Source: Nitrosomonadales bacterium (lineage in GTDB: Bacteria > Pseudomonadota > Gammaproteobacteria > Burkholderiales > Gallionellaceae). From it: a DNA stretch of 64,000 nucleotides. Positions within the stretch are counted from its first letter, which is position 1, and each line of letters starts with the position of its first letter. Of this stretch, positions 55,553 to 55,754 are shown in pieces. The stretch spans positions 1-64,000 of the forward strand of contig JAHFQY010000002.1 of assembly GCA_023259065.1 (NCBI GenBank), in the 5' to 3' direction. Under the pieces are notes generated by a model. The model did no database searches and had not been told where the DNA came from. It was given only the letters and a program-made list of their open reading frames with translations. A program made the translations under genes and the position numbers.

Positions 55553-55754
55553 CCTGGGAACCTCAGTTGACCACTCATCTGCACGCTTAAAGTAATGAAG
55601 GTAATGAATTTAATTGCCCATCCTGGATTCACCCAACTGGTGAGTCCGCTACAGGCCGAATTGCACGGTTTTTGTGACGCATGGCGGCGTTGTAACTCCT
55701 TGCCCTACACCACAAAAACCGCACACTTCGACCTGTCCAACTGAGGTTTCCAGG
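55553..55754. mobile_element. MITE-like element with imperfect 18-bp TIRs and subterminal hairpin
   Basis: TIRs CCTGGGAACCTCAGTTGA (55553-55570) / CCAACTGAGGTTTCCAGG (55737-55754), 16/18; flanking TTTAA direct repeat; internal inverted repeat 55651-55676/55711-55736 (22/26). Confidence 0.7.

Follow-up and report, generated by a model that had tools for sequence, protein, structure and literature searches.

A MITE with IS1380-type ends and a candidate minus-strand-structured inner module at the stop codon of a DUF4124 gene

Introduction

MITEs are usually regarded as passive passengers, with hairpins that simply follow from the inverted ends. One of them, MITEAba12, has an IS5-type parent. The IS1380 family of insertion sequences, which includes ISEcp1, is characterized by CCT ends and a 5-bp (4-5 bp) AT-rich TSD. 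MITEAba12 itself is 113 bp long and makes a 9-bp TSD (PMC6382973). Together with Correia/NEMIS, RUP and ERIC, it resembles the family described here in being short, TIR-bounded, TSD-making, devoid of an ORF and, as would apply to our family too, mobilized in trans by a resident IS. However, MITEAba12 is weakly structured (about -24 to -27 kcal/mol), whereas the 234-236-bp IS1380-type MITE folds at about -95 to -122 kcal/mol on its minus strand and displays covariation on one strand.

REPs are palindromes of 20-40 nt that carry a GT(A/G)G head at the 5' foot (PMC2817692). REP/RAYT palindromes are, like the inner module of our MITE, repeated and intergenic, and they are found inside some IS1380-type MITEs. 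The module is nevertheless longer than a REP, has a two-strand conserved core and carries no 5' GT(A/G)G head, so that it fails the REP definition. It resembles the structured RNAs of Rfam in that its stems covary and its unpaired core motifs are conserved. While the MITE as such belongs to a known class, the new part is this one-strand module, which is common to several MITE families.

Results

A MITE between the DUF4124 gene and an MFS transporter gene

The insert at 55553-55754 of the window (the whole stretch of DNA analysed, 64 kb) is a 202-bp MITE without an internal transposase ORF (Table 1). The first-pass annotation had described a MITE-like, non-autonomous element with 16/18 inverted termini, TTTAA on both sides with the DUF4124 stop codon in the left copy, and a second 22/26 inverted repeat abutting the right TIR. 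All of these features were found in the sequence, and the ORF list agreed that no transposase ORF is present. The strong subterminal hairpin that had been noted was likewise confirmed by its fold z-scores (plus strand, -8.7; minus strand, -8.1), which no shuffle equalled. An exhaustive scan for 18-mer pairs inverted at 16/18 or better, 100-400 bp apart and accompanied by an exact 5-bp repeat returned this copy as the sole such object in the 64-kb window.

Three of the four mismatches in the 22/26 inverted repeat are C-A or A-C, which read as G-U on the minus strand, and our covariance model R3 matched the window copy on the minus strand at 55670-55715 (E 4e-8). A second, complete copy, 236 bp long, lies on another contig of the host genome (C16:83702-83937). 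The main difference between the two is a stretch of 34 bp at the tip of the subterminal hairpin, which has been deleted from the shortened window copy at ~55697-55699. Separately, a TTGACC sequence at 55566-55571 within the left TIR is -35-like and could serve the IS transposase promoter, driving plus-strand transcription into the element; no conserved internal promoter was evident in the element.

Table 1 Features of the window copy and its flanking genes
Feature	Position	Strand	Evidence and remarks
Left TSD, TTTAA	55548..55552		Sequence; carries the TAA stop of the DUF4124 gene; family TSD consensus [AT]TNA[AT]
Left TIR, CCTGGGAACCTCAGTTGA	55553..55570	+	16/18 against the right TIR; same TIR on intact IS1380-type ISs
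Left subterminal stretch	55571..55628	+	Variable sequence, constant spacing (alignments)
Hairpin, TCACCCAACTGGTGA	55629..55643		Remnant of the TCACCnnATGGGTGA hairpin at the transposase start codon; ATG gone in the window copy
Inner structured module	55648..55736	-	Covariation and strand test; comparison with L012
Module stem, 5' arm	55651..55676		22/26 inverted repeat
Module stem, 3' arm	55711..55736		22/26 inverted repeat; directly adjoins the right TIR
Right TIR, CCAACTGAGGTTTCCAGG	55737..55754	-	16/18 against the left TIR
Right TSD, TTTAA	55755..55759		Sequence
Upstream host gene, DUF4124, 152 aa	55094..55552	+	Ends inside the left TSD, intact; PF13511, E 2.6e-13
Downstream host gene, MFS transporter, 391 aa	55775..56950	+	Starts 15 bp past the right TSD; PF07690

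A dispersed family with TSDs and empty sites

Of 399 genomes of the order, 96 were matched at E<=1e-5 by a covariance model built from 25 copies, and in ~54 of the 399 the best match reached E<=1e-20 and was nearly always full length. At the class level, 47 of 369 genomes matched at E<=1e-8 and ~24 at E<=1e-20, most of them outside the order. The element lengths clustered at 233-237 bp, and a single genome (G079) contained up to 22 full-length copies, or 25 matches when truncated ones were included. Copies in relatives occupy other sites, and comparison of the element with plasmid and phage records produced no match.

Among the 158 copies with both flanks, out of 160 aligned, an exact 5-bp TSD was present in 89 and a TSD with at most one mismatch in 129, compared to a shuffled mean of 13 exact repeats; the TSD consensus of the family is [AT]TNA[AT]. 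For one copy in genome G296, the uninterrupted site was found in G325, G073 and G815, providing clean empty sites and demonstrating presence/absence variation for a relative's copy outside the window site. The comparison of empty sites that had been suggested for the window locus succeeded only in part: precise empty sites were recovered in congeners for the G296 copy, but none for the window locus, because the congeners lack its gene neighbourhood and offer no synteny there.

TIRs, short length, absence of a transposase ORF, TSDs, dispersed copies and IS-matching ends together place the element among bacterial MITEs. The annotation had regarded a lone sequence without presence/absence variation as the outcome that would speak against a non-autonomous element, and this outcome is contradicted by the same-genome copy, by hundreds of TIR-bounded copies elsewhere and by the empty sites. 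Searches of the open-access literature yielded no description of an IS1380-type MITE family or of the module; the family is widespread and apparently undescribed.

The ends of the MITE match IS1380-type insertion sequences

A search of 84,980 named genomes for the TIR followed, after 52-82 bp, by TCACCnnATGGGTGA returned 61 stretches, among them complete ISs and many MITEs, the latter in Thiobacillus, Azoarcus, Pseudothauera, Zoogloea, Nitrosomonas, Sulfuricella and Gallionellaceae. Full-length ISs with the same TIRs, which the annotation had proposed to look for, thus exist. The complete ones (L072, L090, L092, L104 and L108) are 1642-1669 bp long, code for transposases of 514-523 aa and are flanked by exact 5-bp TSDs, namely CTCAC in Paraburkholderia elongata, TTGAT and TTCAG in Ideonella, TTGAA in Thauera terpenica (L092) and TTCAT in Rubrivivax. 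In the intact ISs the start codon of the transposase lies within the hairpin. The hairpin has the same 83-bp offset in ISs and MITEs, and the span from TIR to hairpin is 85 bp in both. Among further IS1380-type transposase loci, that of G088 opens with ATAAT and then CCTAGAAGCCTCATTTGATC, and the decayed locus of G093 opens with CCTAAAAACCGCAGTTGA.

PF13701 was matched above its cut-off by the transposases of L092, L104 and P0001. The best NCBIfam match was NF033539 (IS1380), with 177.3 and 134.9 bits falling below the curated cut-off of 180, and the ISs are therefore a divergent IS1380 subgroup, "IS1380-type" rather than a full equivalog. Their CCT ends and 5-bp AT-rich TSD are those of the IS1380 family definition. 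These traits, and the left end including the start-codon hairpin, are shared with the MITE, which differs from the ISs of 1.64-1.67 kb in lacking their PF13701 DDE transposase of 514-523 aa and in possessing the inner module. The host genome, a MAG that is 77% complete, yielded no IS1380-type transposase; elsewhere, one transposase relative was present in plasmid records and none in viral contigs.

Because the TIR and the start-codon hairpin lie at the same offset as in intact ISs, the MITE is best read as an internal-deletion derivative. The earlier suggestion of an IS deletion derivative accounts for the right TIR and for the ~95 bp at the outer end, both of which match the IS1380-type IS, but does not cover the inner module, which is absent from every intact IS and present in unrelated palindromic elements. 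From these shared ends we infer mobilization of the MITE in trans by an IS1380-type transposase. Taken as a whole, it is very probable that the element is a non-autonomous MITE, mobilized now or formerly in trans by an IS1380-type DDE transposase, that combines an origin by internal deletion of an IS with a non-IS module acting as a folded minus strand. The transposase would recognize the CCTRGRAACCKCAGTTGA ends, and would cut and join at the 5-bp [AT]TNA[AT] target, duplicating it. What internal deletion would have spared of the IS is its right TIR and, at the left end, ~95 bp that reach as far as the hairpin at the transposase start codon. The ~125-bp stem-loop module between these remnants is of non-IS origin and also occurs in other palindromic elements, and its minus strand would act folded and single-stranded, as RNA or ssDNA.

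The relic transposase ATG is kept in 29 of 160 copies, at the same offset as in intact ISs, and 17 of 28 copies with the ATG have an open 49-aa frame that runs from it to a TAG within the right TIR. A general coding role was rejected since only 29/160 copies keep the ATG. The frame was seen in the high-GC copies L079, L084, L085, L094 and L102 and is not conserved in most copies; its TAG lies one base before a TSD that often starts with ATG, making re-initiation on the next gene conceivable.

Insertion at stop codons and stop/start overlaps

Insertion at the stop codon is explained by the target motif [AT]TNA[AT], which gene stops (TAA/TGA) and stop/start overlaps (ATGA) naturally provide. The commonest TSDs, ATGAT, TTGAA and ATAAT, contain stop codons and the ATGA overlap, the left copy keeping the stop and the right copy keeping the start; the TSD duplicates the stop/start overlap, and the flanking genes therefore survive. 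Gene contexts were assigned with a dicodon gene caller, which replaced a simple ORF caller that overcalled "inside gene" in GC-rich DNA. The left gene ended within 5 bp of the insertion point in 37 of 77 plus-oriented cases and the right gene started within 5 bp of it in 38 of 93, counts that are indicative, as the gene caller is crude and the copies are not fully independent. With the same reservation, the plus strand was the sense strand in 60 of 82 copies between co-directional genes (60:22, p ~3e-5), and TSDs with a middle purine outnumbered the others 61:26.

The overlap of the target motif with stop and start codons amounts to a simple rule for the harmless entry of a transposon into compact operons. 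The family is common and is often found within a transcription unit, between its genes, so it could shape the expression of many neighbours. Two further insertions (L126:1501-1736 and L165:1201-1435) had entered the ATAAT of apparent -10 boxes (e.g. TTGACA..CATAAT), with duplication of the box.

Covariation and strand asymmetry of the inner module

Across 100 copies, 94.7% of cells in the module were paired, compared to 79.7% after shuffling, and the covariation score was 0.371 versus 0.115 for shuffled alignments (0/500), with structures slid by 1-3 columns scoring at most 0.074. Compensatory changes were detected in 18 of 19 pairs of the long stem. Changes mapped on the tree in the module stem (P3) were one-sided, with 70 leading to A-C and 15 to G-T (22/24 columns, p ~1e-9). 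In the same elements, the TIR stem (A-C:G-T of 20:18) and the start-codon hairpin (15:15) were symmetric, which disfavours a general mutational bias. An A-C mismatch on the plus strand is a G-U pair on the minus strand, and therefore the minus strand folds better: the consensus module folds at -70 kcal/mol on the minus strand and at -35 kcal/mol on the plus strand, and the minus strand gave the better fold in 48 of 48 diverged copies, RNA and ssDNA energies alike.

By inspection, the minus-strand core GGCAAGGCGCrACGACGCG ... CAAGGAGGAGCAACGCCGCC is conserved, although the outer stem on one side of it and the tip on the other both vary, and tandem G-A pairs can form within it. The conserved unpaired core motifs (GGCAAGGCGC..ACGACGCG / CAAGGAGGAGCAACGCCGCC) persist between variable stems. 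No Rfam family matched at its gathering score, and a relaxed threshold gave scattered microRNA-hairpin chance matches only. Two other readings were discarded on inspection: a minus-strand start signal made of the SD-like CAAGGAGGAG and an ATG, as the ATG is not conserved, and an attC-like site, as the box order is wrong.

Taken together, covariation and strand asymmetry make a predicted minus-strand structure of the module well supported, and we infer that the module would function when its minus strand is single and folded, either as RNA or as ssDNA. Because the plus strand is mostly sense between co-directional genes, an RNA from the minus strand would in most cases be antisense, and this makes the RNA reading less simple. 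Recognition of ssDNA by a HUH-type protein may be regarded as a live alternative to an RNA role. The TIR ends evolve as plain DNA, whereas the inner module is selected as one strand, pointing to a MITE-borne function.

The module in other palindromic elements

Module-only matches in G066, G296 and G237 sit in other palindromic elements with different ends, e.g. ATTCGGCTGTTACAGTCCAC and GGGCCTGTTCATG, and all eight module copies compared in such elements fold better on the minus strand (8/8). The copies in G237 are often arranged as inverted pairs ~105 bp apart (e.g. C1 2461339-2461523, 386263-386451 and 3542897-3543081), an arrangement that would represent another composite palindromic element family.

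It is a tentative proposal, with a chance approaching even, that the module represents a structured nucleic-acid family not described before, whose minus strand works in folded form as a small RNA or as ssDNA. Such a family would be carried by several unrelated MITE families of Beta- and Gammaproteobacteria and prefer gene junctions, and its conserved core, set between freely covarying stems, would be bound by a host or mobile-element protein.

Alternative explanations of the module

Long near-perfect palindromes are known substrates of quasipalindrome correction, and the module could be a palindrome whose arms are matched, without selection, by template switching from one to the other at replication; its covariation would then be mutational rather than functional. 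The very high frequency of compensatory changes is in keeping with such a process. It gives no reason, however, for the 70:15 excess of A-C over G-T in the module but not in the TIR or P2, nor for the persistence of conserved unpaired core motifs between variable stems, and the 25 matches in G079 (22 full-length, a small and noisy sample) showed no replication-strand bias. We consider this explanation unlikely.

The module might instead be a REP-like ssDNA hairpin of a RAYT (HUH transposase) system that was captured by the MITE. Such capture would be a recurrent route, as IS1380-type MITEs with true REPs exist, and selection on a single strand fits ssDNA recognition. One case is a 208-bp IS1380-type MITE (L120:618-825) whose core differs and consists of a REP-like GTAGGTTGGGCTGA..GCCCAACCTAC unit; this MITE seems to have arisen independently on the same plan. 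Another is found in G814 (L331 ~1380-1500), where an unrelated 120-bp palindromic element occupies an ATGAA stop/start overlap at which G296 (L128) has the MITE; its ends, CCCAGATTGTCCATTGG, are like those of the IS1380-type loci L032/L033/L051, and its core, GTAGGAGCGCC.., is REP-like. The L120 unit and the GTAGGAGCGC..GCGCTCCCAC of the G814 element both resemble Coxiella and Xanthomonas REPs (PMC2817692). The module itself, at ~125 nt, stands against the 20-40 nt of a REP, and its GTAG is located at the 3' foot and is missing from the module copies in other elements, which renders an origin from a REP improbable.

A still more doubtful possibility is that the asymmetry results from selection on the plus-strand transcript, A-C mismatches weakening an mRNA-disturbing hairpin in copies that lie sense in operons. 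The sense bias (60:22) and the TSD asymmetry (61:26) are consistent with such selection, but it should erode pairing too, yet pairing is kept with compensatory changes, and P1 and P2, which are likewise transcribed, show no bias. Finally, the position directly after the stop codon might suggest a chance inverted repeat or the ordinary intrinsic terminator of the DUF4124 gene, a reading with practically no chance of being correct, since it is refuted by the TSDs, dispersed copies and empty sites, and the element is far longer than a terminator and has no U-tract.

Structural variants of the MITE

Copies of 291-293 bp were observed at L008:1356-1646, L109:2334-2624, L113:2503-2794 and L106:3537-3829. 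Each carries an extra palindromic insert of ~57 bp (CACCCGCAAGGGGCAGGCC...) in the tip of the module, and the position and orientation of this insert differ between copies, suggesting a nested mobile unit. A 167-bp element at L069:1190-1356 consists of two left ends without the module; it lies at the edge of a 1267-bp composite (L069 90-1356) that is flanked by TTCAA/TTGAA.
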